A stretch of 64,000 nucleotides of DNA, taken from the NCBI RefSeq assembly GCF_037044555.1, contig NZ_CP146276.1:62001-126000 (forward strand). Direction: 5' to 3'. The notes under the pieces are model-generated. The model worked only from the letters and a program-made list of their open reading frames with translations. It did not search any database and was not told the DNA's origin. The position numbers were made by a program, and so were the translations under genes. The DNA comes from Pelagibacterium nitratireducens (GTDB lineage Bacteria > Pseudomonadota > Alphaproteobacteria > Rhizobiales > Devosiaceae). This document shows positions 30,818 through 62,358 of this stretch, one piece after another. The stretch's first letter is position 1; each line of letters opens with the position of its first letter.

Positions 30818-32140
30818 ATGGCTGAACCTTCAACCGATGCATCCATCAATCTCTGGGGACGAGAGGTCGCCGCCGTTTCGTGGCTGCCGGAGGATGGGTT
30901 TGCCGTCTTCCAGTATGATCCCGAATTCGCCCTATCTGGGATAGAGCTGTCGCCGCTCGTAATGCCTTTGAGTCCGGACCCCTATTCCTTTCCGGCCCTG
31001 CCCCGGACAACGTTCAAAGGACTACCGGGAATGCTAGCGGATGCCCTTCCCGACAAATATGGCGATCGGCTGATCAACGCTTGGCTGGCGGAGCAGGGCC
31101 GCAGGCCTGAAAGCTTCAATCCGGTGGAGCGCCTTTGCTATGTCGGAACCCGCGGCATGGGAGCCCTTGAATTCAAGCCGGCGCTGATGGGTTCGAACCG
31201 GAGAGCCCGAAAAGTTGAGGTCGCAAACCTCGTTCGCCTGGCCAATCTGGTGTTGAACGAGAAAGCCAGTCTGGAAGGCGTGCTCGAGGGCGAAAACGAC
31301 ATTGCCGCGATCGACGATATTCTCAGAGTTGGCACATCGGCTGGCGGAGCGCGCGCGAAGGCAATATTGGCGTGGAACCAGAGTACAGGCGAATTCCGTC
31401 ATGGCCAGATAGATGCCGGTGACGGTTTCGAACACTGGTTGATGAAGTTCGATGGCATCGACAATAACCGCGACAAGGAAGAACCCGACCCGCAGGGGTT
31501 CGGCCTGATCGAGTACAGCTACTATCTGATGGCAACGGCCGCAGGAATCGAAATGACGCCATGCCGTTTGCATCATGAGGGTGGACGCAGCCATTTCATG
31601 ACACGGCGATTTGACCGGCCCGTCGATGAGAACGGCGTGACACATAAGCTCCACATGCAATCGCTTTGTGCCCTGCAGCATTACGACTTCAACGATCCAC
31701 GCGGCTACTCCTACGAGCAGGCCATCCTGACCATTCGCGAGCTCGGCATTGGCGCTCTCGCACTGGAGCAGCAGTTTCTCCGGGCAGTCTTCAACATCAT
31801 CGCCAGAAACCAGGACGACCACGTCAAAAACATCGCCTTCCTCATGGACCAGGCTGGTGAGTGGACGCTGTCGCCAGCATTCGACGTGAACTACTCCTAC
31901 AATCCGAGTGGCGATTGGACCGGTCAACATCAGATGAGCCTGAACAGCAAACGCGACGGCTTCGCTATGGCCGACCTGCTGGCCTTCGCGGAAACAGCAT
32001 CCATAAAACCAGCCAAAGCAAAGACACTCATTTCCAATATCAGCGAGGTTGTTGCGAACTGGCCGCAATATGCGCAGGACGCCGGGGTTGACGACGAGAC
32101 AACACGAAGGATTGGAAACGCTCACCGATCATTTCGCTGA
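30818..32140 (+). CDS. hipA: HipA-type kinase toxin
   Basis: A 440-residue protein with the HipA fold: P-loop-like GGARAKAILAW, the catalytic ARNQDDHVKNIAFL and the metal-binding SPAFDVNYSY. HipA of E. coli phosphorylates glutamyl-tRNA synthetase and halts translation. Length is normal. All the visible catalytic residues are present, so it may be active. Confidence 0.88.
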   Translation: MAEPSTDASINLWGREVAAVSWLPEDGFAVFQYDPEFALSGIELSPLVMPLSPDPYSFPALPRTTFKGLPGMLADALPDKYGDRLINAWLAEQGRRPESFNPVERLCYVGTRGMGALEFKPALMGSNRRARKVEVANLVRLANLVLNEKASLEGVLEGENDIAAIDDILRVGTSAGGARAKAILAWNQSTGEFRHGQIDAGDGFEHWLMKFDGIDNNRDKEEPDPQGFGLIEYSYYLMATAAGIEMTPCRLHHEGGRSHFMTRRFDRPVDENGVTHKLHMQSLCALQHYDFNDPRGYSYEQAILTIRELGIGALALEQQFLRAVFNIIARNQDDHVKNIAFLMDQAGEWTLSPAFDVNYSYNPSGDWTGQHQMSLNSKRDGFAMADLLAFAETASIKPAKAKTLISNISEVVANWPQYAQDAGVDDETTRRIGNAHRSFR

Positions 32141-33632: not shown

Positions 33633-35085
33633 AGACTTCCGGGCGCATGCATCGCGGAAGACAACGCCGGGGGATGGATTTATGGCGGTCATCCGAAAAG
33701 TAGAGATCAGGAACTTCAGATCAATCAGGTCACTCGATTGGCGCCCGACCGAAGGCGTGAACTGTCTCATCGGAGCCGGCGATGCTGGCAAGAGCAGCGT
33801 GCTGGATGCCATCGACTATTGCCTCAGCGCGCGGCGTTCTCTCGCGATCGGTGATTCTGACTTTCACAACCTCAGCGTCGAGAACGACATATCGATCACG
33901 CTGGTTCTCGGTCGGTTGGACGACAATCTGAAGAACTATGAGACCTACGGAGATTTTCTTTCGGGAATGCGAGCCGCCGATGGGAGCATTGAAGATGAAC
34001 CTGGGCACGGTCTGGAGACCGTCCTCAGACTCAATCTTTCCGTGGCTGGCGACCTAGAGCCGAAATGGCGCTTGATATCGAAGCGGGCGGAGGACAAAGG
34101 GCTCGATCGCGGCTTGAACTGGGGCGATTGGATCGCCCTCTCCCCAACCCGGCTCGGACCCTGGTCGGAAAACAATCTCGCATGGCGGCGCGGGTCGGTC
34201 CTAAACCGGCTTAGCGAGGAGAAGCCCGATGCCTCGAAAGCGTTGTCGAACGCGGCTCGAGATGCTCGGAAGAACTTCGGTACCGAGGCAGATAGGCAAC
34301 TCGGAGATGCGCTTGCGGTCGTCACCCGGACAGAAAACGAGCTCGGCGTGCCGATCGGCGCTGCGGCAAAAGCCCTTCTCGACACCCATTCAGTATCCAC
34401 GAGCGGGGGAACGATTGCGCTTCACAACGAGCTTGGTGTGCCTCTGCGAGGCCTCGGAACGGGATCGACACGCCTGCTGATCGCCGGTCTTCAGCGCCAA
34501 GTGGCGGACAAGACGTCTATCCTCCTTGTCGACGAAGTCGAACACGGATTGGAGCCGCACAGGATCCTGCGGCTCATTGGCTCATTCGGTGCGAAAACCA
34601 ATCCGCCACCTCAACAGGTATTCGCCACGTCGCACTCGCCTGTCGTATTGCGCGAGCTTGGCTCGGAGCAACTGTTCATTCTCAGGAAGTCGGCTGACGG
34701 ACAGCATTTGCCCCTGCCTGTGCCCGCCGAGGCGCAGGGTACACTTCGCGCGTTTCCCGGCGCTTTCCTGGCGCCCTCTGTCCTCATCTGCGAAGGTGCG
34801 ACCGAGGTAGGGTTTGTGCGGGGATTCGATCAATTCTGCGTGGCGCACGGCCGCGTTTCTCTGCAGGCCGCTGGTGTTGCGATCGTTGACTGCGGTGGCG
34901 GGCACGCTGATCGACCCTATGAGCGGGCGAAGGCACTCACCGCTCTCGGATACCGCGTTGCCGTCTTTCGCGACGATGACGTCAGCCCCTCTGCCGCTCT
35001 GATCGCTGAAGCTGCCCAGGCAGGATGCTCGACCTTCACATGGGACGATGGATGAATAGCCCCGAGTTTCGTGGACACCCTCGGG

Positions 35086-36093
35086 TTAGATTTCCTGCTG
35101 CCGTTCGAACTCGACGGGTGACAGCATCCCGTTCCTGACGTGCTTGCGTTTTGGGTTGTAGAACATTTCGATGTAGTCGAACACGTCCTGCCTTGCCTCT
35201 TGGCGTGTTCGATAGGTTCTGCGCCGTATTCGCTCACGCTTGAGCAGATTGAAGAAGCTTTCTGCCACAGCGTTGTCGTGGCAATTCCCCCGTCGGCTCA
35301 TCGAGTGCTCAAGATTGTGATGCTTAAGAAAGGCTGCCCAGTCCATGCTGGTGAACTGGGAGCCCTGATCGGAATGGATCAAGACCTTGCTCTTGGGCTT
35401 TCGACGCCATACTGCCATGAGCAAAGCCTGCAACACGACGTCGGTTGTCTGGCGGCTCTGCAACGACCAACCGATGACGCGACGAGAGAACAGATCGATG
35501 ACAACGGCCAGATAGGAGAAGCCTTCCTGGGTCCTGATGTAGGTGATGTCTGTCACCCACGCCCTGTCCGGGGCCTTCACATCGAACTGGCGAGCCAAGG
35601 TATTGTCGACCACGATCGAGGGCCTGCCGCCATAGGAGCCGGGCCGTCGTTTGTAGCCGATCTGCGCCTTGATCCCGGCAAGCCTCGCAAGACGAGCGAT
35701 GCGGTTAGCACAACTGGTCTCTCCCTGATCGAGAAGGTCATCATGGAGCTTGCGGTAGCCATAGACCCTGCCGCTTTCCTTCCAGGCATTGCTGATGAGC
35801 TCGGTCTGACGTGCATCTTCCAACGCCCGCTTGCTCAGCGGAGCCTTCAGCCAGGCGTAGAAACCGCTGGGTCGGATACGCAAGCAACGGCACATCGCCC
35901 GAACCGTGAATTGCTGGCGATGCTCGGCAATGAACGCGTATCTCACTTTGCATCCTTGGCGAAATACGCGGTGGCTTTTTTTAAGATGTCGCGCTCCTCG
36001 GTGACGCGCGCCAGCTCCTTCTTCAGTCGCCGGATCTCGGTTGCTTGATCCGCATCGCCCAACCCAGAAGGCTTCGAGAACTTCTTCTTCCAA
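35086..36093 (-). CDS. IS3-family transposase OrfB (DDE integrase core)
   Basis: The frame encodes HTH_21-like and rve domains: VTDITYIRTQEGFSYLAVVI contains the first Asp, VLIHSDQGSQF the second, and NAVAESFFNLLKRE the Glu. Translation should come from a -1 slip on the A7 run (minus strand; T7 at 35976-35982) at the end of OrfA, so the first residues of the open frame (before about 35980) are not expected in the product. The catalytic residues are all there. Confidence 0.85.
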   Translation of the reverse strand: MEEEVLEAFWVGRCGSSNRDPATEEGAGARHRGARHLKKSHRVFRQGCKVRYAFIAEHRQQFTVRAMCRCLRIRPSGFYAWLKAPLSKRALEDARQTELISNAWKESGRVYGYRKLHDDLLDQGETSCANRIARLARLAGIKAQIGYKRRPGSYGGRPSIVVDNTLARQFDVKAPDRAWVTDITYIRTQEGFSYLAVVIDLFSRRVIGWSLQSRQTTDVVLQALLMAVWRRKPKSKVLIHSDQGSQFTSMDWAAFLKHHNLEHSMSRRGNCHDNAVAESFFNLLKRERIRRRTYRTRQEARQDVFDYIEMFYNPKRKHVRNGMLSPVEFERQQEI

Positions 36094-36215
36094 GCGTAGA
36101 GCGAGTGTGGGCTCACGCCGAGGCGCTTCGAAACCTCGGCAACGGGGTATCCCCGCTCGGTAATCTGCGCGACTGCATCACGCTTGAACTCGTCACTGAA
36201 ATTGCCAGACCCCAT
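35943..36215 (-). CDS. IS3-family OrfA (helix-turn-helix)
   Basis: A 90-residue protein with FSDEFKRDAVAQITERGYPV, the HTH GVSPHSLYAWKKKFSKP and a leucine-zipper-like RRLKKELARVTEERDILKKA. It binds the element ends and provides the N-terminus of the OrfAB fusion. It overlaps OrfB by 151 bp. Confidence 0.88.
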   Translation of the reverse strand: MGSGNFSDEFKRDAVAQITERGYPVAEVSKRLGVSPHSLYAWKKKFSKPSGLGDADQATEIRRLKKELARVTEERDILKKATAYFAKDAK

Positions 36216-36542: not shown

Positions 36543-37574
36543 TCATGCAACAGCAGCCTGTGCCGGATTCTCGTAATCCTTTCTCTTCGTCACCATGGCC
36601 CAGATCGCTCGCGCCATCTTGTTTGCCAGCGCAATCGCCACAAGCATTCTCGGCTTCCTGGCCAGCATCCGAGACAACCATGACCTCTCTGGAATGGTCT
36701 TTCGCCCGAGCCAGTTCAATCGAGACATCGCTCCCATGATCAGGAGCCTCCTGATGTCGGCTTGCCCGGCCTTCGATATGCGCCCAAGCCGCTCTTTTCC
36801 TCCGGACGAATGCTGCCGCGGCACCAATCCCAACCACGCAGCGAAGTCTCGCCCACGCCGAAAGCTCTCCATTGGCGGTGCGAAAGCCTCAACGGCCAAC
36901 GCGCTCATCGGTCCGACCCCCGGCATCGTTTGCAAACGACGCGCCGTATCAGTCTGAGTTGCCAGAGCAACGATCTGTTTGGTTTTGGCCTGAATTCGTT
37001 CCGTCTTCTCCGAGACCTGCAGCAAAAGATCACGGCACTCCTCGCGAACCCGTGCTGGCAAGTCGCTGTTGTCAGCTTCGATGATCGCCTCAATCCGCTT
37101 TAGATGGCCAATCCCCGGCGGGGTCGGATGGCCGAACTCATACAGCACCGAGCGTAGAGCGTTCACCAGCTCTGTACGCTGACGAACAAGTCGTTCTCTT
37201 CCGCGAAAGAGAACCGCCTGCGCTTGCTGCTCTTCCGCCTTGGGCGTGATGAAGCGCATCTCGGGTCGCTGCGCGGCGACAACGATCGCTTCGGCATCAG
37301 CCGCGTCATTCTTCTGACGCTTGACGAAAGGCCGCACATATTGGGGAGCGATCAGCTTTACCTCATGGCCATGCTTGGCGATCTCGCGAGCCCAATAATG
37401 CGCGCTGCCGCATGCTTCCATCACAACGACCGCCCTAGGATGCCCAGCAATGAATCTGCGGAATTGCATCCGAGATAGCTTCTTGCGGAACTTCACTTCC
37501 CCAGTCATTGAGGCTCCATGCACCTGGAAAACGTTCTTCGCCAGGTCGATCCCCATCATTGTCTCTGTTGTCAT
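36543..37574 (-). CDS. IS110/IS1111-family transposase (DEDD recombinase)
   Basis: About 343 residues from ATG 37574. The N-terminal RuvC-like domain shows GIDLAKNVFQVHG (D), VVMEACGSAHYW (E) and KNDAADAEAI (D,D). The C-terminal Tnp20 domain contains MPGVGPMSALAVEAF and the probable serine nucleophile in PRQHSSGGKERLG. All key residues are present, so it may be active. Confidence 0.9.
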   Translation of the reverse strand: MTTETMMGIDLAKNVFQVHGASMTGEVKFRKKLSRMQFRRFIAGHPRAVVVMEACGSAHYWAREIAKHGHEVKLIAPQYVRPFVKRQKNDAADAEAIVVAAQRPEMRFITPKAEEQQAQAVLFRGRERLVRQRTELVNALRSVLYEFGHPTPPGIGHLKRIEAIIEADNSDLPARVREECRDLLLQVSEKTERIQAKTKQIVALATQTDTARRLQTMPGVGPMSALAVEAFAPPMESFRRGRDFAAWLGLVPRQHSSGGKERLGRISKAGQADIRRLLIMGAMSRLNWLGRKTIPERSWLSRMLARKPRMLVAIALANKMARAIWAMVTKRKDYENPAQAAVA

Positions 37575-38024
37575 CTTCGCTGTCCTTCCCATCCCGTTTG
37601 GTCAGACCGACAATTCTCCAACAGAAGTTGTCGGCTGGGTAGGGCGGCAACCACTCCATCTATTCAGGACAGGACATTGAGACTGCCATCGTCGCCAACG
37701 TAAACGAAGCCATTCTATTGCAGGTGATCGACTACGCGATTTCTGTTCACGGACAAGGCTTGGTCGACGATCACATCAAGTCGGCATCGCAAGGGGCCGC
37801 GACCGTCGAGAACATCAGGGCTGTTCTGTATTCGCAACAACAAACGCTCACCGGAGATCAGCGCGTTGTCGTTGCTCGGGCTGCGGGCGGAAAAAACGGC
37901 TGGTTCAAATCAGTCGGCGATATGGAACATGTCGCCAAAGAGATCCTCGCGCCAAATTTCGCTGGGGTGACTGAGGGGTTCAAGGCCCGGGTGAACAACC
38001 TCTTGATCTGGGCGCAGACGGTTC

Positions 38025-39434
38025 ATGGATGAACTAACGGTTCTCAGCGCAAGCAAGGGGAGCGTGTCCGCGCCAGCGGGATGTGGAAAGACGCATTTGA
38101 TTGCTGCATGCATAAGAGCCTCAACGGACGAAAAGCCAATCCTGATCCTGACGCACACCAATGCCGGTGTTGCCGCCCTGCGGGGGCGATTAGACGCCGC
38201 GGGCGTGCTGCGAACTCGTTATCGGATCACTACGATCGACGGATGGGCAATGCGCCTGGTCGGGACCTTTCCGCAACGGAGTGAGCAACATACAAATATC
38301 TTGAAGTTGAAGAATCCGGGAACCGACTATCCAGCGCTTCGAGCTGGCGCGCTCGCCATTATCAATGGGCAGCATCTGTCGGGTGTAATCGATGCGACTT
38401 ACTCCAGGCTTGTCGTTGACGAGTATCAGGACTGCATTGTCCAGCAGCACGGAATGATCGCGCAGCTGTCTGAGTTGTTGCCTACGTGTGTCTTGGGCGA
38501 CGACATGCAGGCGATCTTCGGCTGGGGAACGAACGTTCTCGTGGATTGGTCGAATGCAGTGGAAGCTTCGTTTCCACCGATCGGTCAGCTCTCGACACCG
38601 TGGCGTTGGGACAACGCAGGTGCTCCGAGGTTGGGACAATGGCTCTTGTGGGCGCGGTCAGCGCTGCAGACCGGTACTCCGATCGATCTCCGGAGCGCAC
38701 CGGATGAAGTGACTTGGATGCAGATCTCCGGTCCCGATGATATCCAAACGCTTACACGGGCTGCCTATGCTGCTTCACCGGTGGCAGATGGTGGGGCGCT
38801 TATTATCTGCGACAGCCGTCGGCCGAATCGACACAGGGATATCGCCAGCCGGGTGAAAGGTGCCGTCGTCGTTGAAAATGCCGACCTGTCTGATTTCATA
38901 AGATTTGCCGAGCGATTTGATTTCGATGCGCCGTCCGCTACCGATGATTTGATTGACTTCGCCGCCAGTACGCTCACCGGGGTTGGGGCGGGGCAACTCA
39001 AACAGCGGTTGGTGTCACTTCTTGCCGGCAGGGCCCAAAAGGCGCCGACCGAAGTGGAAGAGGCGGCAATTGCCTTTTCCAAAAACCCGGTCCCCATAGC
39101 GGCAGTGGAATTACTCGTTGAGATCAACAAGCAAGCAGGCGTTTCGCCCCTTCGCCCCGCAATTCTGCGCGCCGCGATTCAAGCTCTTAACGGCTGTGTC
39201 TACAAAGCAGACTTCTATGAGATGGCTGTTCGTGCTCGAGAGCAGTCACGCGTCCTTGGACGCTCCGTTCCCAGGCGGGCCGTCGGCAGCACTCTGCTAC
39301 TGAAGGGCTTGGAAGCCGACATTTCAGTTGTCCTCGATACCGACGTTCTGGACGCACGTAACTTGTATGTGGCTCTGACGCGAGGCTCACGGCGGTTGGT
39401 TGTTTGTTCGACCAGCCCGGTGCTTCAACGGTAA
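38025..39434 (+). CDS. UvrD/Rep-like helicase (GajB-like)
   Basis: A 469-residue superfamily I helicase with Walker A SAPAGCGKTHL, LVVDEYQDC and VLGDDMQAIFGW, and a C-terminal NLYVALTRGSRRLVVC. It starts inside the last codons of the OLD gene (8-bp overlap), so expression is coupled. An OLD nuclease followed by a short UvrD-like helicase is the Gabija arrangement. Here the IS inside the OLD gene probably reduces or abolishes its translation. Confidence 0.8.
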   Translation: MDELTVLSASKGSVSAPAGCGKTHLIAACIRASTDEKPILILTHTNAGVAALRGRLDAAGVLRTRYRITTIDGWAMRLVGTFPQRSEQHTNILKLKNPGTDYPALRAGALAIINGQHLSGVIDATYSRLVVDEYQDCIVQQHGMIAQLSELLPTCVLGDDMQAIFGWGTNVLVDWSNAVEASFPPIGQLSTPWRWDNAGAPRLGQWLLWARSALQTGTPIDLRSAPDEVTWMQISGPDDIQTLTRAAYAASPVADGGALIICDSRRPNRHRDIASRVKGAVVVENADLSDFIRFAERFDFDAPSATDDLIDFAASTLTGVGAGQLKQRLVSLLAGRAQKAPTEVEEAAIAFSKNPVPIAAVELLVEINKQAGVSPLRPAILRAAIQALNGCVYKADFYEMAVRAREQSRVLGRSVPRRAVGSTLLLKGLEADISVVLDTDVLDARNLYVALTRGSRRLVVCSTSPVLQR

Positions 39435-39618
39435 GTTTGGCGATCCTAGAGGCTCCACGCGGGGACCTTTGCTGCTTTCGCAGCCTTATAGGCCGATACC
39501 ATCGGCCGCGATGAGAAAAGTTCGATGGCAACCAGAAGGCTGCATAGTAGGCGACCGGCCGGGTGGTCCGATCACGCGCTCATTGCCGCTCACGCGGAAT
39601 TTCCCGTGAGGCTACATG

Positions 39619-40683
39619 TCAAGAGGCTGATAAAATATGCTGGGTGCTGGGCGGGCAAGCCGGGCACGCGACGGAAGGCTCTGTCGATTCATGGCGGACC
39701 ACGGTGCGTAAAACTGGCCGGCCATTCATGATGGCATTGATCTGATTTTGGAACTCGCGAGGCTCGACCAAATACATACCACCGCGGGCGCCTTCAAAGG
39801 CGCAATTCCAAGCGGCAAGAGCTTGGCCATAGCGAAGTGCCTTCGACAAACCTTGAGCGTCCATTTTCTTGAGTCCCAACAACCCCTGTTTGGCGCCTAA
39901 GGCCAGAATGCCAGCCGTGCACCAGTCGCCGGAGCCGCACGTGTCCACGAGGCTTGGCGCAGGGAACGCGGGGCAAATGCTCCAGTCGGAAATTTGCCCG
40001 TCGAGACGGTGTCTGTACCGCAGACCTTGCGAGCCAAGCGTCTGAATCTCGAGCAAAGTCGCAGTTGAGGCGGTCATGGCGCCACCCGCCTCGGAAAGGC
40101 GCTGATCCGAGTACTTCACGATGTGTGCGATTTTCATCGCTTCCGCAAACTGCTTTTCGTCCGACTTTCCGGAAGGTTCAAACAGAACTACGGCACCATT
40201 TTGCGCTGCTTCTGCTGCGAGCGTTAATGCAGCTCTCGACAGCCGATCCATGAAGAAAACCGCAGAGCCCGGTAGTGCGAGGGTGATATCCTCCACTGCA
40301 TGCTGTGTGACGGGCCTGTAGCTGGGCAGACGCTTTCCGCAGTGCGGGCACGTCCAGAGGAACCGGTGTGTCGGTGATCCGTCACGAGCGCGCCTAATTT
40401 GTTGAATTATGATCGGTGTATGGCCCGTCGGAGCGCAATTGGCAAAGTCCAATTTCACCCCCCATTTGGCCATGTCCGCCCGAACACGTTCTGACGCGGG
40501 ATCACCATTCATTCGTGCGATTGGGTAGGCATCCCAACCCAGGTATCTCATTATCGTGAGAACGTTGCCGCATGTTCCGCCGGCCCATGAGTGAACTGGC
40601 GCTTCACTGTCGAGCCCAATTACAAGATCGAGCGCGATCAAGCCCGTGCCAAAGATCTTCGGCCTTTCCTCTGGATGGTTCAT
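39619..40683 (-). CDS. PfkB-family kinase with an inserted zinc ribbon, last gene of the five-gene operon
   Basis: A 354-residue protein with a ribokinase-like fold: FGTGLIALDLVIGLD at the start, AGGTCGNVLTIMRYLGWDAY, and near residue 244 DTCGSGDWCTAGIL, the PfkB motif with the catalytic Asp. An insertion contains CPHCGKRLPSYRPV, half of a zinc ribbon; a second CPAC lies at the C-terminus. The substrate is unknown (sugar or nucleoside by family). The start overlaps the previous gene's stop (ATGA, 40680-40683). Confidence 0.7.
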   Translation of the reverse strand: MNHPEERPKIFGTGLIALDLVIGLDSEAPVHSWAGGTCGNVLTIMRYLGWDAYPIARMNGDPASERVRADMAKWGVKLDFANCAPTGHTPIIIQQIRRARDGSPTHRFLWTCPHCGKRLPSYRPVTQHAVEDITLALPGSAVFFMDRLSRAALTLAAEAAQNGAVVLFEPSGKSDEKQFAEAMKIAHIVKYSDQRLSEAGGAMTASTATLLEIQTLGSQGLRYRHRLDGQISDWSICPAFPAPSLVDTCGSGDWCTAGILALGAKQGLLGLKKMDAQGLSKALRYGQALAAWNCAFEGARGGMYLVEPREFQNQINAIMNGRPVLRTVVRHESTEPSVACPACPPSTQHILSAS

Positions 40684-41789
40684 GGGACGTGTCCTTTTTT
40701 CAGCCTGGGGCGCGGCTGCGGGTAGACCTCTCCCTCCAACCAGACATGAATGATATGGGGCGTCGGCGAAGCAAGATCCGCGGACGCATCGAAATCATAC
40801 CCTATCGATTCGAGGTAAGCGACTGGTAAATCTCGCTCGAGGGCCGCCATCAGGGCGCCGAGGGACATGACTTTGCTACCCAGCGGAGAAAGAACCAGGA
40901 TCGAGCCTCCGGCATCTCGAAACACCGGCTTGCGTAAATCGTCCAACCGCAGAATTGTGCGATAAAGGTGTAGGGGATCCTGTTCATCCGCGTACACGAC
41001 GTCGCGGGCATCAACTGACCAACCGCTCTCGAACTCTGCCAAGTATTCCTCTGCCAGCATGTCTCCGAGGCGCGGGTCGCGCGCCGGAAAAGGCAGGATT
41101 GGGCATGTGTCGTGCGGAGCGACGAAATCGTGGACCCGAGATAGGGCCTGCTGGCGCCCCATTGCGAGCTGTGGGAGCCATAACTTCGCTGCCCGAGAGG
41201 CAGCGTCGAGCGTCAGCCCCCCTTTGAACCCATGAACATAGCCTGGAACGTCGCTCGCCACAGAGGATATCTGCGCGTCAAGATTGGGATCATGCGACAC
41301 AAAGAGATGCAGGTTCTGCGGATCCTTGCCTCGATTAATCCGCTCAACGAACAATCTGATCAAAGGGAACGCTGTGCCCACTGAAAGGGCGCTGATGTCG
41401 ACGATCACGTCGGTGACTTCGGTCAGATCGTACCGCGAAACGCCCAGTGTAACATTGCGTCCACCGACAACAGCGCCATCAGCTCCGAAAATTTCGACGG
41501 CAAGGATATCGTTCGAGGGAAGCAGCGTCTGAAGCTTCTCGATATTTTTTTCGGCGCGGCGAGTGAGCTCAGAATCTGGATTGGGCCGGTTCTCTCTGAT
41601 GAACAATGCTTGAGCATCGGCACCGGCGGCAGCGAGACGTTCAGCAATCTGGGTCGCGCGTGGATCAAATCCACCACCTGCGATTAACAGCGCTTTCCTG
41701 CCATTCTGCGAGAAATATTCGGACGCAAAGCTTTCAGCTTCTGAGCCATCGTGGGAAATGCAAGGATCCCATCGCCACCCGTGCGCCAT
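40680..41789 (-). CDS. unknown Rossmann-like protein, fourth gene of the operon
   Basis: A 369-residue protein without a family that I recognise. The N-terminal part has alternating strands and helices (RKALLIAGGGFDPRATQIAE; DVIVDISALSVGTAFPLIRL), suggesting a Rossmann-like nucleotide-binding or sensor fold. The C-terminal part has SILVLSPLGSKVMSLGALMA and a conserved-looking YLESIGYDF. It starts with TAATG, overlapping the ATPase stop by one base. It could be a sensor or a second enzyme of the pathway. Confidence 0.6.
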   Translation of the reverse strand: MAHGWRWDPCISHDGSEAESFASEYFSQNGRKALLIAGGGFDPRATQIAERLAAAGADAQALFIRENRPNPDSELTRRAEKNIEKLQTLLPSNDILAVEIFGADGAVVGGRNVTLGVSRYDLTEVTDVIVDISALSVGTAFPLIRLFVERINRGKDPQNLHLFVSHDPNLDAQISSVASDVPGYVHGFKGGLTLDAASRAAKLWLPQLAMGRQQALSRVHDFVAPHDTCPILPFPARDPRLGDMLAEEYLAEFESGWSVDARDVVYADEQDPLHLYRTILRLDDLRKPVFRDAGGSILVLSPLGSKVMSLGALMAALERDLPVAYLESIGYDFDASADLASPTPHIIHVWLEGEVYPQPRPRLKKGHVP

Positions 41790-43702
41790 TATTTGGCCTC
41801 GCCCAGCAAACGGGTGAGATCTTCCACGCGTCGTTCAAGAAATCCTCCTCTTTTCAGGGTCAAGCCGCTCTTGATGAGTACCACCCCGGATAGTTCGACG
41901 AGACACCAGAGCTTGTTCTTAGCCCCATGGTTCGGAATGAGAACGAATGCGTTGTAGGCAACTCCAAACTGAAGGACCTTTGCGAGGTCGGGCTGCAGCT
42001 TCGGGATCTGATCAAATTCTTCCTGAGGAATCCCGAACGCGTTCGCGCCGCCATTGAGCGACGCGTTGCCCTCCAAGCTCTTTTCGATGCACTGGTCGGC
42101 GATGCCTTGAGACAGCCGTTTCACAAGATGATGGAGAGGAAAATCCCATTCGCGGATCATCTCGTCCGCGCGATCGCGCAGCAAGTTGTGTTGGACCTGA
42201 CTGGTCAGTGTCGGCGCCTTCGACCGTATCAACTGGGTCTCCGACTGCGCGACGAGCCGTGCGGCGAGGTGCAGAAACTGCTCTGCGTTCTCCGAGCTCG
42301 CATCGCAAAGAGCATCGATGCCGTAGTAGTATGGTCGGTCAAATTGGTGAAGCAGATGGATCTTGGCGCCGTCAGCGATCGCCGCGCTCGCTGTCACGGG
42401 CCGTGAAGGCTCGACGTCGGTCGCCTCCTCGAAGAGACCGCGTTGGGGAGTTCGGTTTGCATATCGTTCGAGAAGTATGGCGAGCATCGACAGCCTTAGG
42501 TCGTTGGCGGGTTCCCCAGTTTTCGCCAGGTACTCGGAAACCTCCCGTTCGAGCGCTTCTCGGCGCTCAGCAGTGATCGAATTTCGTCGCTGAATAGCGT
42601 CGACTTTCTTCGCTAGCTTGCCGGCCTTTGAAGGCGGGAGATCATCGACATGCGTCGAGAGAAGATCACCAAGGGTGTTCAAGCCCCGGCGATTAAAGAC
42701 GTCCATCTGGCTGAGATACCGGCCAGCCATGTCCTTCGCCATTTTCCGGAAGGCTCGCCGCTGGCTCGATCTCCCCTCGCTGCTTTGCATCCAGATGGTG
42801 GTGATTTCCCGAGCGCGCTTCAGACCGGGCTCACTTTCGTCGAAAGCGTTCTGTCCCTCGATGAGTACATCCGCGGGAGCCAATGCGTCCAGGCGGGTGA
42901 GGATCCACCGGGCCACCCGCAATTCCCTGCGCGCAAGCCACCGTTGGAGCGCAGCTAGCTGGCTCGGGTGCAAGAAATGTGCATCGTCGAAGACAACCAA
43001 CGGGGTCAGTTGCAGGTCTCCCGACCCATCCGTGACCCGGAACGCGTCTATGACATCCAGCGGTCGATACGCTGCCGCCGCGGCATTCTGTTCAACCTCA
43101 TCTATGTCTGGAGGAACAAGGGCGGCCGAGATTTCGTAAATCGCTGTTTCCATCTCTCGGGCGCGCCGCTGCAGCCCGATGCCGTTTTCGCCGCCAATCG
43201 CTTCAAGGGCAGCATCAGCATCGGGCCGAGCGACGATCTCTATGTTCTCAAGGCTGATGCCGGCTGCCTGGGCATCTCGCAACCAGGCAAGCACTGCCCG
43301 CGCCTGAAGTAGCGCAACGGTTAGCGAGGACTTTAAACTGTCCGGATAAGGGAACTCCCAAAACTCGCGATATTCACTTTCGAGCGAAATCCGGCAGCCG
43401 ATAACTGAGGGCTTGCCATCACGGATCGCGTCACAAGATGTAAGCGCGTCGATCAGGGTCTTGTAGGTTTCGAATCCACGATTCCGAAGCAAGACCTGAA
43501 GCGTTGAGAATTTGAACAATCGCGCGAGGGTCGTCTTCCCGCTTCCGGGCGTCCCGATCACCATGGATAGCCGGTCGTAGAGCTTTCCCTCTTTCGCCGG
43601 CTTCTTGAAAAACGTAGACAACGGCTCCGGGGTAACGACAGCCAGAAAGGCTTCGTCTTGCAGCAAATACTCGGTTGCCCGTTTTTCAAATGGATTTACC
43701 AA
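41789..43702 (-). CDS. P-loop ATPase (ORC/AAA-like), third gene of the operon
   Basis: A 637-residue protein with Walker A VIGTPGSGKTTLARLF near residue 50 and Walker B LVVFDDAHFL near 236, the layout of AAA_16 or STAND-like ATPases. The C-terminal 350 residues are helical and may be a winged-helix or sensor part (VRPVTASAAIADGAKIHLLH region). The start is a TTG at 43702, 7 bp after the PRTase stop; no ATG fits. In defence systems such ATPases often sense or switch. Confidence 0.65.
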   Translation of the reverse strand: MVNPFEKRATEYLLQDEAFLAVVTPEPLSTFFKKPAKEGKLYDRLSMVIGTPGSGKTTLARLFKFSTLQVLLRNRGFETYKTLIDALTSCDAIRDGKPSVIGCRISLESEYREFWEFPYPDSLKSSLTVALLQARAVLAWLRDAQAAGISLENIEIVARPDADAALEAIGGENGIGLQRRAREMETAIYEISAALVPPDIDEVEQNAAAAAYRPLDVIDAFRVTDGSGDLQLTPLVVFDDAHFLHPSQLAALQRWLARRELRVARWILTRLDALAPADVLIEGQNAFDESEPGLKRAREITTIWMQSSEGRSSQRRAFRKMAKDMAGRYLSQMDVFNRRGLNTLGDLLSTHVDDLPPSKAGKLAKKVDAIQRRNSITAERREALEREVSEYLAKTGEPANDLRLSMLAILLERYANRTPQRGLFEEATDVEPSRPVTASAAIADGAKIHLLHQFDRPYYYGIDALCDASSENAEQFLHLAARLVAQSETQLIRSKAPTLTSQVQHNLLRDRADEMIREWDFPLHHLVKRLSQGIADQCIEKSLEGNASLNGGANAFGIPQEEFDQIPKLQPDLAKVLQFGVAYNAFVLIPNHGAKNKLWCLVELSGVVLIKSGLTLKRGGFLERRVEDLTRLLGEAK

Positions 43703-43709
43703 GTCGCAC

Positions 43710-44858
43710 CTATACGTGTCTCTGGCGGCGGCGGAAAAGCGGACTCATCGGAGGCGCCGTCGCGCCGCCTTCCCGTTCTCCGCCCTCGGTTTCAGCCCAC
43801 AGCAGACCCACTGAGTTGTTTGGCGTGTTGTGGTCCAAAACTAATGGCAACGCGCACCCGGCGTAGCCGAGCCCCAAATGCGTTACTCCTCCGACGTCGG
43901 TGTGTTTCGTTCGGATGGCAGGATCATAGTAGATATTCGTCAACTCGATGAAGTCACCGAAATCGTTTCCCGGCGCATTTATCGGCAGGTTTTCGGGTAG
44001 GATCGTTCCGAACGAGAAATGAACTTCCGATGCCCAGCCTTCGGTCTGAAACGACGATCGCGCTTCTTGTTCGCGTTCTATTGCCGTTCGAGACGCTGCA
44101 TCCGTACCTATATAATGATGGATGCAGAGCTGCCAATCGTCGGAAAAAATCTTCTGGTCTGAAAGCTGAGCCTGGGCATGAACGATCGATTCTTTGAATT
44201 TTTTCAGTTTCCCTGACCACTTCTTCTTCTCTTCATTGTACCGAAGGAACGAAGATCCGCTGCCCATGAAATCGTCGATCAGATAGACAAGCCGAAACCT
44301 CGCATCTGGATCGCCAATGGCCTCTCCCAATTGGCTGAGTAGGTCTTGCCATTTCTCAGTGTCGAGCTGAGTCGAGACGACCATTTGCTCGTTGTTCAGC
44401 ACCCCAACATTGCTGTGTCTCAATCCGTCGATGCGAGCCCCGTCGCTTAGACCCATGAACAGCGTTTGGCGTCGCAGTCGCTCGACCGCAGCCCTCGCAT
44501 CCGCGTCGGCATAAACCCTGTAAGGTGGAATCCCTTTTTCATTGGCGACCATACGAACCAGGCGGTCTCGAACGAACTTCGGATACATCTGCTCGACAAG
44601 CCTTTGCATCTCGCTCGGGCCAACGTAGACGATTGCATTTCGGGCAAATTCATAGGCCGTCTTTCGCTGGTCCGCAGTGGAAAATTGTTGCAGCCAGGTG
44701 GCAAGGCTCTCGATAAAACGCATTCCGGCTTGGAAGTCGCGATAACCGTCGTATTTCAAGCGGGCCATCAAGCGCAGCCAACGAAATTCCTTTCGAGCCT
44801 CGTCGTCACTCCACTGCATGATTTCGCTGAGGATCCGAAGGCCGAGGTCTTCGTTCAT
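43710..44858 (-). CDS. phosphoribosyltransferase-like protein, second gene of the operon
   Basis: A 382-residue protein. LVYLIDDFMGSGSSFLRYNE near residue 190 fits the PRPP-binding loop (hydrophobic strand, two acidic residues, G-S-G-S) of type I phosphoribosyltransferases. A helical N-terminal 100 residues and a C-terminal extension of 150 residues do not resemble housekeeping PRTases. ATG 44858 overlaps the upstream stop (ATGA). I recall predicted immunity systems with PRTases that carry C-terminal extensions; whether this is one needs a profile search. Confidence 0.65.
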   Translation of the reverse strand: MNEDLGLRILSEIMQWSDDEARKEFRWLRLMARLKYDGYRDFQAGMRFIESLATWLQQFSTADQRKTAYEFARNAIVYVGPSEMQRLVEQMYPKFVRDRLVRMVANEKGIPPYRVYADADARAAVERLRRQTLFMGLSDGARIDGLRHSNVGVLNNEQMVVSTQLDTEKWQDLLSQLGEAIGDPDARFRLVYLIDDFMGSGSSFLRYNEEKKKWSGKLKKFKESIVHAQAQLSDQKIFSDDWQLCIHHYIGTDAASRTAIEREQEARSSFQTEGWASEVHFSFGTILPENLPINAPGNDFGDFIELTNIYYDPAIRTKHTDVGGVTHLGLGYAGCALPLVLDHNTPNNSVGLLWAETEGGEREGGATAPPMSPLFRRRQRHV

Positions 44859-46798
44859 AGCAGCGCCCCCTTTCGAAACCGCAGACCTTTCTCTGCGGAA
44901 TCCAATGCGCCAAGATACATGCGGGTGACGGCGATCCCACGTTGCCCGGGTTCCGCCAGATTCCAGCAATTGCTCGGGTCCACGCTTACTTCGTCAACGC
45001 TGAGCCCCATGGGGGTACTGAGGAGCGCATAGTCGTTGCCCGGCCATTTTCCGCGGTCACCGATCGTGAGAATGTCGCGGCCTCTCACCTGATCCTGCAG
45101 ATGACGGACCACATTCTTTTTTGAAACGCCGCTTGCAACAATATCGATCGAGTGGCTCGACCGGGTAATAATGGCGTCAGTACAGCCGACTTGAAGGACG
45201 ACCTGATGTGCAATATCCCATAGCCTGTTTTCTGCCATGAAACGGATCGGCTCCAGCGTAATTTGGTAGCGGCGATTGGTCTGCCTTGCCGAGCCAGAAA
45301 GTTCGTGGCTTTCGGCAAGGGCATCTGCCAAGGTCTTCAGTTCTGGGCAAACTTCATCGGTTCCATCTGGCTGCGAATCATCCGCGAGCGAGCCAATCAT
45401 GGCGCCGTTGTAGTAACCGACCACAACGTTCTCCCAAACCTTATTGGGCAACACCGTTCTGAGGTCATTCCGTACCGATACACCCCGACCGGTGGCGATG
45501 GCCAATATGGCGTCGCTGTCAGCAATCCTTTGGAGCTCGCCAGCAATTTCGGGTCGGGCGGGTTCAAATCGCTCGCGCGTATCAACGACCGTTCCGTCGT
45601 AATCCAACACGACTGCACCGAAGGTCTTCTTCTCCAGCCGGTCCACAAAATCGGCATGCGCGTGTTGCCAGAAGCGTAAGGTGTTCTTCTCGTGGAGGAG
45701 ATGGACACTCTCGCCGGTCTTTCGCCGGATTGCCGCAGCGGCGGTTGCTTCGATCCGCGGCGCTGTACCTCGACGTTCTCTCTTTGGCAGCTTCAAGTGA
45801 TACAGCTTGCGGCCGAACTCCGGAACTCCGGGCTGCCCAGGATCGATTTCACGAGCCTGGCCCGCCCACCCGGTGACGCGTAGCGCAGCAAGGAGTGATC
45901 CGAGCAGCGCCGCCGGACCGGTGCCCGGGATGTCAAGGCTCGCGACAGGCACCTCCTTGGGGATGAGTCTCAGCGTTTTTTTGGCAAGCTCACGGTCGTC
46001 TTCGGCGACGAGTGCCAAGACTGAAGTTTGATCCTCACGCTTTGCGAGCCAGTGGTGCCGTCCATGAGCAAAGTTGCGGTAGTCCGCCAGTTGAATGTTT
46101 CCGAGCGCGGCCTCAGTGAATTTTGACTCAATGTCTGTGGCGCCGACTTTCGTGGCCGGTCCATAGAGGACGATCGTCGTTGATCGCTGCCACAGGGCGT
46201 CCGCTGCGCCGCGCCAAGTCAGAACTGGTTTGCTCGACGCATCAAGGAGGGGTGCGACGAGATCGGAAACTTCATTCCAATCTGCGGGGTCGCCGAAGAC
46301 CGAAACGTAGGCTCGCGCGAGAAGTGTTGAGAAGGCGAGCAGGGAGTTGGTGGCCAGAAATCCATCCTTTCCCGCCGGCGGAGGAAAAACCAAGAGGTCT
46401 ACGAACGGGTGTCGCTCGCAGATAGCCGTTATCGGGCTGTTGGCGCGCCCGCACAGAACGGCGATTTGACGATGCTCTCGCTCAATAAGTGATTTCGCCG
46501 CAGCGTTGATGTCGACATTGGTACCTCCGGCACTCAAGAGCCATTGGCTGACGGAGGCTTCGAACACGGTATCGACGGCCTCAAGCGGCGTTTGAACAAT
46601 TCCAGGCTTCCCAGTATAGAATTGATGCAGCGCTACGAGCGCCTGCGCGGCCGTCAGAGACCCCCCAGACCCTATCGCCGCCAGCGCCGAAAGACCCGCA
46701 AGCTTGACCGCCCTTTCAAGACCACCAATGTCGGCCGTACTGGCCCATCGAAAAGTCTCTTCTAGCCGCGATATTTCCAGTTCGTATGGCTTTGCCAC
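44855..46798 (-). CDS. SIS-domain and HAD-hydrolase fusion, first gene of the operon
   Basis: About 647 residues from a GTG at 46798 with GGGGGT upstream; the open frame reaches 46846. The N-terminal half is a double SIS (sugar isomerase) domain with AIGSGGSLTAAQALVALHQF. The C-terminal half is a HAD phosphatase with VVLDYDGTVVDT near residue 398 (nucleophile Asp), AIATGRGVSVRNDL, and ILTIGDRGKWPGND. The combination suggests handling of a phosphorylated sugar or nucleotide sugar. I know no characterised enzyme with this fusion. Confidence 0.7.
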   Translation of the reverse strand: MAKPYELEISRLEETFRWASTADIGGLERAVKLAGLSALAAIGSGGSLTAAQALVALHQFYTGKPGIVQTPLEAVDTVFEASVSQWLLSAGGTNVDINAAAKSLIEREHRQIAVLCGRANSPITAICERHPFVDLLVFPPPAGKDGFLATNSLLAFSTLLARAYVSVFGDPADWNEVSDLVAPLLDASSKPVLTWRGAADALWQRSTTIVLYGPATKVGATDIESKFTEAALGNIQLADYRNFAHGRHHWLAKREDQTSVLALVAEDDRELAKKTLRLIPKEVPVASLDIPGTGPAALLGSLLAALRVTGWAGQAREIDPGQPGVPEFGRKLYHLKLPKRERRGTAPRIEATAAAAIRRKTGESVHLLHEKNTLRFWQHAHADFVDRLEKKTFGAVVLDYDGTVVDTRERFEPARPEIAGELQRIADSDAILAIATGRGVSVRNDLRTVLPNKVWENVVVGYYNGAMIGSLADDSQPDGTDEVCPELKTLADALAESHELSGSARQTNRRYQITLEPIRFMAENRLWDIAHQVVLQVGCTDAIITRSSHSIDIVASGVSKKNVVRHLQDQVRGRDILTIGDRGKWPGNDYALLSTPMGLSVDEVSVDPSNCWNLAEPGQRGIAVTRMYLGALDSAEKGLRFRKGALL

Positions 46799-47031: not shown

Positions 47032-48138
47032 TCAAATAATTCCCCACGCCCGATACCGGCCCCTTCCCGTCATCTCGCGCACGCCCAGCTCTCCGATCAA
47101 ATTCAACGCGCCGCGAGGGGATATCTTCGCCGACTTCGCAATCATGTGCGCCGAGACGATCGGGCGCGACAGAAGCAGGTGGATGGCAACCGGAAGACTG
47201 CTCGTCGATCGCTTGCCCAGAGCCTTCCGCTCAAGCTGCCGTTTTGCCAGTGTCAGTCGATCGATGTCCTTCATCCCCGCAGCCGCAGCGGCACTCATTG
47301 CATCGAGAGAAGCTATCAGCCTCGTCGTTCGATCGCGAGCACGGCGGCGCTCGCGTGGAATTTCTCGCAGGCCAACCGCATAGGCCAGCAGGTGCGAACG
47401 AACCTTTCTGCGCGATCGCAGGAAATCCGAAACAAGCAACAGTCCGAGCCAGTGCTGGCGCTGCAGCGATTCGAGATGTTCCCATGCATCCCAGAGAACC
47501 GCCGCTGCCAAGGTGGCCGGGAACCGTTCCACCTTCTTGGCCAGCTCGAGCCACTCGCCGATCCGCTCGCCTTCATCCCAATCCGGATCGCGAATGAGCA
47601 GCTCGCCGACACTGAGCTCGGGCTCATGCTTCCTCGGCTCGGCGGGCTCGTTGCAATCAACAAGCCATTTGGTGCGAGCGAGGACTTGGTCGATCTCGGC
47701 CAGCTCGGGCGACAGTGCATCGTGATAGACCAAGTCGAGCTCCACCCCCTCCCCTTCCCTGTCGGCCGACACGGCCTCGATGGAGGACTCCTCCGCGACG
47801 CCAGCCAGCGCCATGATCCCTGATCGCGAAACTGCCCAGCCGGGATCGTTCCGCGAGACCTGGCGCCTCGCGCGCACGATGCGGTGCGCGATGACGAGCT
47901 CGTGGCTCGGCGCACGAATGTCCATCCGTGCGTCGTGGAGAACCAGGTCCTCAAGATGGACGAGCTCACCGGCGACCCACATACTAGCGATGGAATCGAA
48001 AAAGTCCGCCCGTTCGGCAAAGCCTGCACCGACCTCGGACCGGGCGACGCGCTCATCGAGCCGGGCAAGAGCATCCTCAGCGGCCGCCAACGGCCCCAGA
48101 AGGATCTTATGGGTCAGATTTCCGATTTCATAAACCAT
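47032..48138 (-). CDS. DUF1612 / RHE_PE00001-type DNA-binding protein
   Basis: A 368-residue protein from ATG 48138 (MVYEIGNLTHKILLGPLAAA). It contains ERADFFDSIASMWVAGELVH, LEDLVLHDARMDIRAPSHEL and a C-terminal helix-turn-helix (MIAKSAKISPRGALNLIGEL). Proteins of this type are common on rhizobial plasmids and are annotated as DUF1612 with HTH; their role is unknown, perhaps regulatory. It faces away from the serine recombinase across a 280-bp spacer. Confidence 0.78.
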   Translation of the reverse strand: MVYEIGNLTHKILLGPLAAAEDALARLDERVARSEVGAGFAERADFFDSIASMWVAGELVHLEDLVLHDARMDIRAPSHELVIAHRIVRARRQVSRNDPGWAVSRSGIMALAGVAEESSIEAVSADREGEGVELDLVYHDALSPELAEIDQVLARTKWLVDCNEPAEPRKHEPELSVGELLIRDPDWDEGERIGEWLELAKKVERFPATLAAAVLWDAWEHLESLQRQHWLGLLLVSDFLRSRRKVRSHLLAYAVGLREIPRERRRARDRTTRLIASLDAMSAAAAAGMKDIDRLTLAKRQLERKALGKRSTSSLPVAIHLLLSRPIVSAHMIAKSAKISPRGALNLIGELGVREMTGRGRYRAWGII

Positions 48139-48164
48139 TGATAACACGACGCTTCGATTACGCT

Positions 48165-61698: not shown

Positions 61699-62358
61699 AT
61701 GGCTAAGAAAGTACCCGACAATCCCTATCTTGCCGCACGCTATGAATGGAACGAACGCTATGGCTCCTATGTGCGTGCAGCAACCGCTTGGCGCACCATC
61801 GGCCTTGTCTCGATGACCATGGCCGTGATCGGCTTCGGCTACGCGCTCTACCAGTCCACACAGGTCAAGCTCGTCCCCTACATTGTTGAGGTCGATCAGC
61901 TCGGCAATTCGGCCGCAGGCGGGTTCCCCGCGCAGATCGAATATGCCGATGAGCGCGTGGTGCGCGCGATGCTTGGCCAATGGGTGACGAACTTCCGCTC
62001 GATCACGCCCGATACGGTCGTGCAAACCGGGTACATCAACCAGACCTATGCGATGCTACGGCGGCAAGATCCTTCCACCGAGAAGGTCAACGCTTGGTTC
62101 CGCAATAACTCGCCCTTCGATCAGGCGCGAGAAAAGACGGTTTCCGTCGAAATCAACAATGTAGTGGCCCTGTCCAACCAGTCCTATCAGATCGACTGGA
62201 CCGAGATCGAGCGCGATAGGCAGGGCAGGGAATTGCAGACCCGACGCTGGCGCGGAGTTGCCACCGTTACACTATCGCCGCCTCAAGACGAGGCTATCAT
62301 TCGTCTCAATCCGATCGGTCTTTACCTGGCCGATTTCGATTGGACCGCTCAGCTTTAA
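61699..62358 (+). CDS. trbF: TrbF, VirB8-type protein
   Basis: A 219-residue bitopic protein: cytoplasmic N-terminus, one hydrophobic segment ([18 protein letters not shown]), and a periplasmic NTF2-like domain with [13 protein letters not shown]. It bridges the inner-membrane complex and the core. Confidence 0.9.

Follow-up and report, generated by a model that had tools for sequence, protein, structure and literature searches.

Five tightly coupled genes of Pelagibacterium nitratireducens, located next to a Gabija-like defence gene set, raise the question of whether they form a functional unit of their own and, if so, what this unit might do. They lie in a 64,000-nucleotide stretch of DNA (positions 62,001 to 126,000 of contig NZ_CP146276.1, assembly GCF_037044555.1; hereafter the window), where the operon occupies positions 39619-46798 of the minus strand and encodes a SIS-HAD fusion protein, a phosphoribosyltransferase (PRTase), a P-loop ATPase, a CARF protein and a PfkB-family kinase. 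The original prediction, made from the sequence alone, had described five minus-strand genes with overlaps of 4, 1 and 4 bp and one 7-bp gap, and all of this was verified, the junctions being, in order, -4, +7, -1 and -4 bp. It had further treated the genes as a set of five parts. Our analysis confirms that the genes are linked and that the operon is a real recurring unit, more than a chance assembly; its parts, however, are unequal, as an invariant triad of PRTase, ATPase and CARF genes is combined with an exchangeable enzyme module.

Co-occurrence and distribution

Relatives of CARF, SIS-HAD, ATPase and PRTase were identified in 16, 17, 15 and 17, respectively, of 72,556 plasmid records. All 16 plasmid records with CARF also appeared in the SIS-HAD and PRTase lists, and 15 of them in the ATPase list; on the sixteenth, a Rhizobium lentis plasmid, the ATPase was found by profile together with a NADAR gene, and no PfkB gene was found in this locus. 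Two extra plasmid records (L078 and L079) represent lone incomplete copies. CARF relatives also occurred in 3 of 385, 5 of 397 and 6 of 398 genomes sampled at the level of class, order and phylum, samples which overlap and each of which counts the window's own genome. Strong SIS-HAD matches fell in the same 3 of 385 genomes as CARF (in one of these cut by a contig end), and near-full-length PRTase matches in the same 5 of 397, with weak matches in 3 others. SIS-HAD matches in 21 other genomes of the 385 were partial or weak, the best covering 66 residues at 2.4e-18, and within the sensitivity of the search no whole SIS-HAD was detected outside the CARF carriers in the 72,556 plasmids or the 385 genomes. 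Plasmid records and genome samples agree that the genes travel together across bacteria.

The plasmid carriers belong to the Alphaproteobacteria, the Betaproteobacteria and, in one record, the Actinomycetota, and 8 of the 16 were typed as conjugative. The operon is not limited to plasmids, since at least one copy (L088) resides in a 5.4-Mb contig. Three contigs that are classed as viral by their IMG/VR label only carry CARF relatives; two of them (L080 and L082) hold all five genes, and the third (L081) holds the triad with PfkB and NADAR genes and stops before any SIS-HAD. No CARF6 relatives were found among the 50,697 records of a phage collection. From one annotated plasmid locus to the next the flanks hold different genes, which argues against a conserved metabolic cluster. 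A conserved chromosomal cluster of this kind had been named by the original prediction as one of the outcomes that would speak against it; what we observed instead is a five-gene set that is rare yet conserved, patchily distributed, variable in its flanks and often plasmid-borne.

Composition of the loci and exchange between modules

To define the gene content, 41 loci (35 plus 6) were read with profiles, and plasmid loci were fetched for 15 of the 16 carriers (CP039919 excepted). Twelve loci were dropped: L004, L005, L010, L011, L069, L070, L081 and L087 are truncated at the ends of their contigs (L010 and L069 being one contig), L016 is part of L077, L018 has broken frames, and L078 and L079 are the lone copies mentioned above. 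In the dropped locus L018 (6972-14460, Rhizobium sp. CC-CFT758), PRTase, CARF and SIS-HAD are in pieces, and ATPase, PfkB and NADAR look whole. The remaining 29 loci, in which a profile coverage of at least 85% was required for each gene, are referred to as complete. They were found via CARF, so that its presence in 29/29 is given by construction; the window itself stands outside the 29, and L002 and L003 are near-identical to its copy (CARF 99%). PRTase, ATPase and CARF are contiguous and in the same order in every complete locus. SIS-HAD is likewise present in 29/29, either upstream or downstream of the triad, PfkB in 26 and a NADAR gene in 12, the identity of the latter being supported by PF08719 in 7/7 sequences tested. 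All three complete loci without PfkB (L024, L072 and L074) possess NADAR, which is suggestive of NADAR accompanying or standing in for PfkB, three loci being too few for a test.

Two loci, L017 (6943-19120) and L077 (6390-20663), contain two triads each beside a single SIS-HAD/PfkB/NADAR set, with one SIS-HAD place per record. The CARF proteins of the paired triads are only 27-28% identical, and in L077 the first is similar to the CARF of L021 (64%), the second to the CARF of L015 (59%). One enzyme set beside two divergent triads fits enzymes acting on some diffusible compound that the two triads share.

A division into two modules was also evident from Mantel tests on pairwise distances, from which near-identical rows (distance ≤0.1) had been removed beforehand. 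The correlation was 0.95-0.97 among PRTase, ATPase and CARF, 0.97 between SIS-HAD and PfkB, and 0.63-0.79 across the modules (n 22-27, p 0.0005 in each case); for NADAR and the other genes it was 0.52-0.70 (n 9-12). The triad of L022/L073 groups with copies from Sulfitobacter and Sphingomonas, and the SIS-HAD/PfkB pair of the same loci with the window type. The module trees, computed from 20 of 23 chosen rows (three without PfkB were left out, and the second triad of L077 was used), conflict at a support of 1.0 for L022/L073. In the approximately unbiased (AU) test at 2000 resamplings, which is below the number advised by the program, the topology of either module is rejected by the data of the other. 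This conflict and the mutual rejection indicate that SIS-HAD/PfkB has moved from triad to triad, being swapped yet kept present. Such an exchange would be expected if the modules meet via a diffusible metabolite and not via fitted protein surfaces.

Assignment of the five proteins

The fourth gene, which had been listed as unknown, encodes a CARF6-type protein: the PADLOC CARF6 profile PDLC01916 matches residues 9-358 of 369 at 5.1e-125, and the structure model, which displays the Rossmann-like CARF fold, aligns best with Can2, Card1 and Csm6 in a VIA second look, the CARF proteins ranking first only there and not in the plain Foldseek ranking. A search of PDB sequences with the CARF profile returned nothing significant. 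In the window's genome, no match was obtained for Cas10-palm (PF22335), Cmr2 (TIGR02577) or the SMODS CD-NTase (PF18144), other nucleotidyltransferase families not having been searched. Because of these missing matches, a cyclic oligonucleotide made by Cas10 or by a SMODS CD-NTase is unlikely to be the CARF ligand.

The PRTase matches PF24390 (PRTase-CE) at 2.5e-15 with 57.5 bits (curated cut-off 27) and, weakly, the PADLOC profiles of retron III-A PRTases (6.6e-10), and a loop of the [DE]DF..SG type is present in 29/29 relatives; against PDB sequences, its profile gave nothing significant. Enzymes of this type form a ribose-nitrogen bond. Similarly, the ATPase matches PF24389 (ORC-CDC6-like) at 3.1e-10 with 39.9 bits (cut-off 27), and its relatives carry Walker A in 29/29 and a Walker B pattern in 28/29; its PADLOC matches were weak, and the profile search of PDB sequences yielded weak P-loop matches only. 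Both Pfam families were defined as parts of conflict systems. The existence of these two curated families and of the CARF6 profile makes it too strong to say that none of the proteins resembles known members. The Pfam hits of the operon's five proteins include no nuclease, protease or membrane/pore domain, and for this reason the PRTase is the likeliest candidate for the executioner of the system.

In the SIS-HAD fusion, residues ~1-330 form a SIS domain of the phosphosugar isomerase/deaminase/deglycase type, with the double-domain fold and the conserved active-site region present, and residues ~390-630 a HAD-IIB phosphatase. The nearest SIS folds include GFAT/GlmS, NagB-II and FrlB, enzymes which form or cleave C-N bonds on phosphosugars. 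FrlD and FrlB, a PfkB kinase and a SIS deglycase, constitute a known salvage pair. The kinase of the operon matches PF00294 at 4.5e-14, and its profile matches PDB fructokinases at 9.1e-21. Neither SIS-HAD nor PfkB was matched by a PADLOC profile. The zinc ribbon previously ascribed to the kinase is not a general feature, as a first CPxC is found in 19/26 relatives and two CPxC in only 13/26, and a general zinc ribbon was rejected on these grounds.

Genomic setting

The host replicon, a contig of 160 kb, belongs to a genome of 3.85 Mb that was assembled in two contigs and is 99.98% complete. Here, the operon shares its neighbourhood with repABC (RP-C, RepB and ParA-type matches), a resolvase, a HipA-like gene and the Gabija pair (Table 1). 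Its G+C content (57%) is slightly lower than that of the window (60%), and scans for promoters and terminators performed no better than chance.

Table 1. Positions of the operon genes and of selected neighbours in the window
Feature	Position	Strand	Remarks
SIS-HAD	44855..46798	-	GTG start; homologues begin MAKPY at that point
PRTase	43710..44858	-	PRTase-CE phosphoribosyltransferase; proposed effector
ATPase	41789..43702	-	TTG start; ORC-CDC6-like P-loop ATPase; proposed switch
CARF6-type protein	40680..41789	-	proposed ligand sensor
PfkB-family sugar/nucleoside kinase	39619..40683	-	
GajB	38025..39434	+	PADLOC GajB 7.6e-175, whole profile length; neighbour, outside operon
gajA, two pieces	33682-35055 and 37718-38032	+	PADLOC GajA; the pieces match a single profile at 1-455 and 473-568
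HipA-like gene	30818-32140		PF07804 5.4e-48
RHE_PE00001-family gene	47032..48147	-	upstream flank; NF040876 2e-151

The presence of a Gabija-like set and a HipA-like gene near the operon, which had led to the suggestion of a defence role, was borne out by the profile matches. For Gabija this holds with a restriction: gajB matches over the whole profile, but gajA is split in two pieces around transposase-like open reading frames (ORFs). These ORFs (35086-36215 and 36543-37592) are of the IS3 and IS110 type as judged from reading them. A stretch of 77 nt between gajB and pfkB (39467-39543) is 70% like positions 47125-47201 within the RHE_PE00001-family gene and may perhaps be a remnant from an insertion. 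Genes of the RHE_PE00001 family occur near the system also in L012, L015, L017, L025, L026 and L077, and these neighbours may mark an insertion hotspot.

From the annotated tables, 61 flanking genes were chosen by hand, and of the families matched in a library scan of them the 25 commonest were considered. Gabija adjoins the operon both in the window and in L018, where gajB is in two ORFs. In L026, Shedu is found at a distance of ~6 kb; L015 has a caspase-family gene next to the operon, and L017 a TmtA-like gene upstream of it. A conflict-type nucleotidyltransferase (PF20697) is located upstream of the system in Rhizobium leguminosarum 9B (L012:1104-2324). A nucleoside 2-deoxyribosyltransferase is annotated near L021 (1287-2162) and L025 (14965-15525), and PF05014, which represents another enzyme of N-glycosidic bonds, was matched by 2/61 flanking proteins.

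Discussion

From these assignments we infer a defence role, the PRTase as effector, an antidote role of the accessory enzymes and every substrate named in the following. The reading that we prefer, tentatively and as possible rather than probable, is that of a plasmid-borne, CARF-sensed, ATPase-gated PRTase effector with an accessory enzyme module, predicted to act as an anti-invader system of the abortive type. The CARF protein would sense a nucleotide-like ligand, and the ORC-CDC6-like ATPase would act as the switch. The suggestion of the original prediction that the set handles a modified nucleotide or sugar-nucleotide, with the ATPase as switch, is supported to the extent that both assignments fit a sensor of a nucleotide ligand and a switch. 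As executioner, the PRTase would transfer phosphoribose from phosphoribosyl pyrophosphate (PRPP) onto a base or another nitrogen, and harm might be done by a toxic N-ribosyl product, by the loss of PRPP or by both. SIS-HAD and PfkB, with NADAR as an addition or, in some loci, a substitute, would form or cleave sugar-phosphate-to-nitrogen bonds and remove or add phosphate; the module might thereby dispose of the product of the PRTase, or else of the ligand of CARF, so that the core does no harm before a trigger arrives.

Parts of this scheme have precedents. PRTases have been proposed as retron effectors, and one PRTase, paired with DprA, gives protection from T7 and lambda through a chemistry as yet undefined; in these cases the PRTase is the proposed effector under a sensor (PMC9122126 and PMC12548924). 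The operon is likewise similar to type III-A retrons and DprA-PRTase in having a PRTase as proposed effector under a sensor, but it differs from them in that reverse transcriptase, winged-helix and DprA are absent from its Pfam hits and in that it possesses an ATPase, a CARF protein and sugar enzymes. A retron assignment was rejected, since no reverse transcriptase hit was found among the five operon proteins, to which the search was confined. NADAR enzymes, according to PMC11125620 and PMC9503650, cleave ribose-nitrogen bonds and serve as antitoxins to ADP-ribosylating toxins. The DarT-NADAR and YarT-YbiA pairs are comparable in that a ribosyl-transferring enzyme is encoded near a NADAR N-glycosidase, as in 12/29 of our loci; here, however, the enzyme is a phosphoribosyl- and not an ADP-ribosyltransferase, there are more parts, and the window has no NADAR gene. 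The CARF effectors of type III CRISPR (Can2, Card1 and Csm6) have the same CARF fold as judged from profile and model, but the CARF protein of the window is unfused to an effector and its genome is without a Cas10-palm or Cmr2 match. Assignments to type III CRISPR and to CBASS were rejected, with neither Cas10 nor SMODS matches in the genome. Chp likewise combines CARF with a HAD phosphatase (PMC12715507). Fructoselysine salvage by FrlD/FrlB differs from the present set, in which SIS is fused to HAD and other SIS enzymes score higher. In the DefensePredictor study (PMC13092281), a figure legend on validated systems names a PRTase, the paper also refers to NADAR domains and to a HAD phosphatase, and CARF and PfkB are absent from the main text. 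No description of the whole five-gene set was recognised in the literature searched, which is not to claim its absence from print. We file the operon as a putative conflict system of the CARF/NTPase-gated kind, in which the effector would be a PRTase and the sugar-nitrogen module is exchangeable.

A number of observations weigh against the CARF-gated effector system or weaken its support. The own top matches of Foldseek for the CARF model are unrelated proteins (KCC3 and DOT1L), and the C-terminal half of this model has low confidence. The G[AS]GD motif is present in 24/26 PfkB relatives and missing in L080 and L082, and in L014 the end of SIS-HAD sits in another frame. NADAR (PF08719) is absent beside the window operon and without a match in the window's genome, and the link between loss of PfkB and presence of NADAR concerns three loci whose independence is not established. 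The PRTase of the second triad in L017 is split over two frames, which may have inactivated this triad and leaves L077 as the sole clean case of two triads. The count of defence genes in the flanks had no comparison set of random plasmid genes, and enrichment is not claimed. In Chp, the nearest studied CARF-HAD effector, conserved HAD residues are not essential for toxicity, according to PMC12715507. Finally, PRTase, SIS, HAD and kinase could equally form a biosynthetic route.

The latter point leads to an alternative that we regard as unlikely, namely that PRTase, SIS, HAD and PfkB make a modified nucleotide that is sensed by CARF, with the ATPase as effector and NADAR resetting the signal. 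In such a chain the PRTase would add phosphoribose, SIS would rearrange the product, HAD would dephosphorylate and PfkB rephosphorylate it, an order that resembles the PRTase-isomerase-phosphatase logic of amino-acid pathways. The ATPase would then be the sole remaining effector, however, and the PRTase tracks ATPase and CARF (r 0.95-0.97) over SIS-HAD and PfkB (0.79 and 0.77), which is unexpected for a single pathway and argues mildly against it; a nucleoside-type signal has, on the other hand, been proposed as the product of Ter-linked PRTases and HAD enzymes (PMC7824862). It might also be speculated that the active PRTase burns the pool of PRPP or nucleobases, with SIS-HAD and PfkB, and NADAR where present, recycling sugar phosphate or nucleoside and without any specific antidote. 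We consider this quite improbable, as the recycling of a common sugar phosphate offers no obvious reason for a dedicated SIS-HAD in all 29 complete loci, even though the CARF-linked HAD phosphatases of the Chp type lower ATP and inosine monophosphate (IMP) and give immunity (PMC12715507).

The operon might also have no anti-phage role and instead be a cassette for plasmid maintenance, plasmid exclusion or stress response. The adjacent repABC in the window, the RHE_PE00001 genes nearby on several plasmids and the conjugative type of half of the 16 carriers would fit; set against the Gabija and Shedu neighbours and against CARF and PRTase families otherwise tied to defence, this explanation appears distinctly unlikely. 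Very improbable is an ordinary operon of sugar or nucleoside metabolism that merely lies near defence genes: SIS, HAD and PfkB are families often met in catabolism, and the profile matches include fructokinases, but the triad is non-metabolic in type and always present, the distribution is patchy and, at the sensitivity of the searches of the 72,556 plasmids and 385 genomes, whole SIS-HAD went undetected outside the CARF carriers. Housekeeping metabolism was therefore rejected as the principal explanation, on account of the patchy distribution and the ever-present triad.

Within the preferred reading of a CARF-gated PRTase, a more far-reaching idea, which we regard as doubtful, is that a CARF freed from cyclic oligonucleotides gates the PRTase, that immunity operates through an N-ribosyl-phosphate which this enzyme makes or uses as substrate, and that the swappable SIS-HAD/PfkB/NADAR module is an antidote shared by several triads per cell. 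If true, this would amount to a new immune chemistry, in which a de-ribosylation or deglycation module serves as an antidote common to different sensor-switch-effector triads. The exchange of the accessory module between triads represents a natural experiment on which of the parts share a small molecule.

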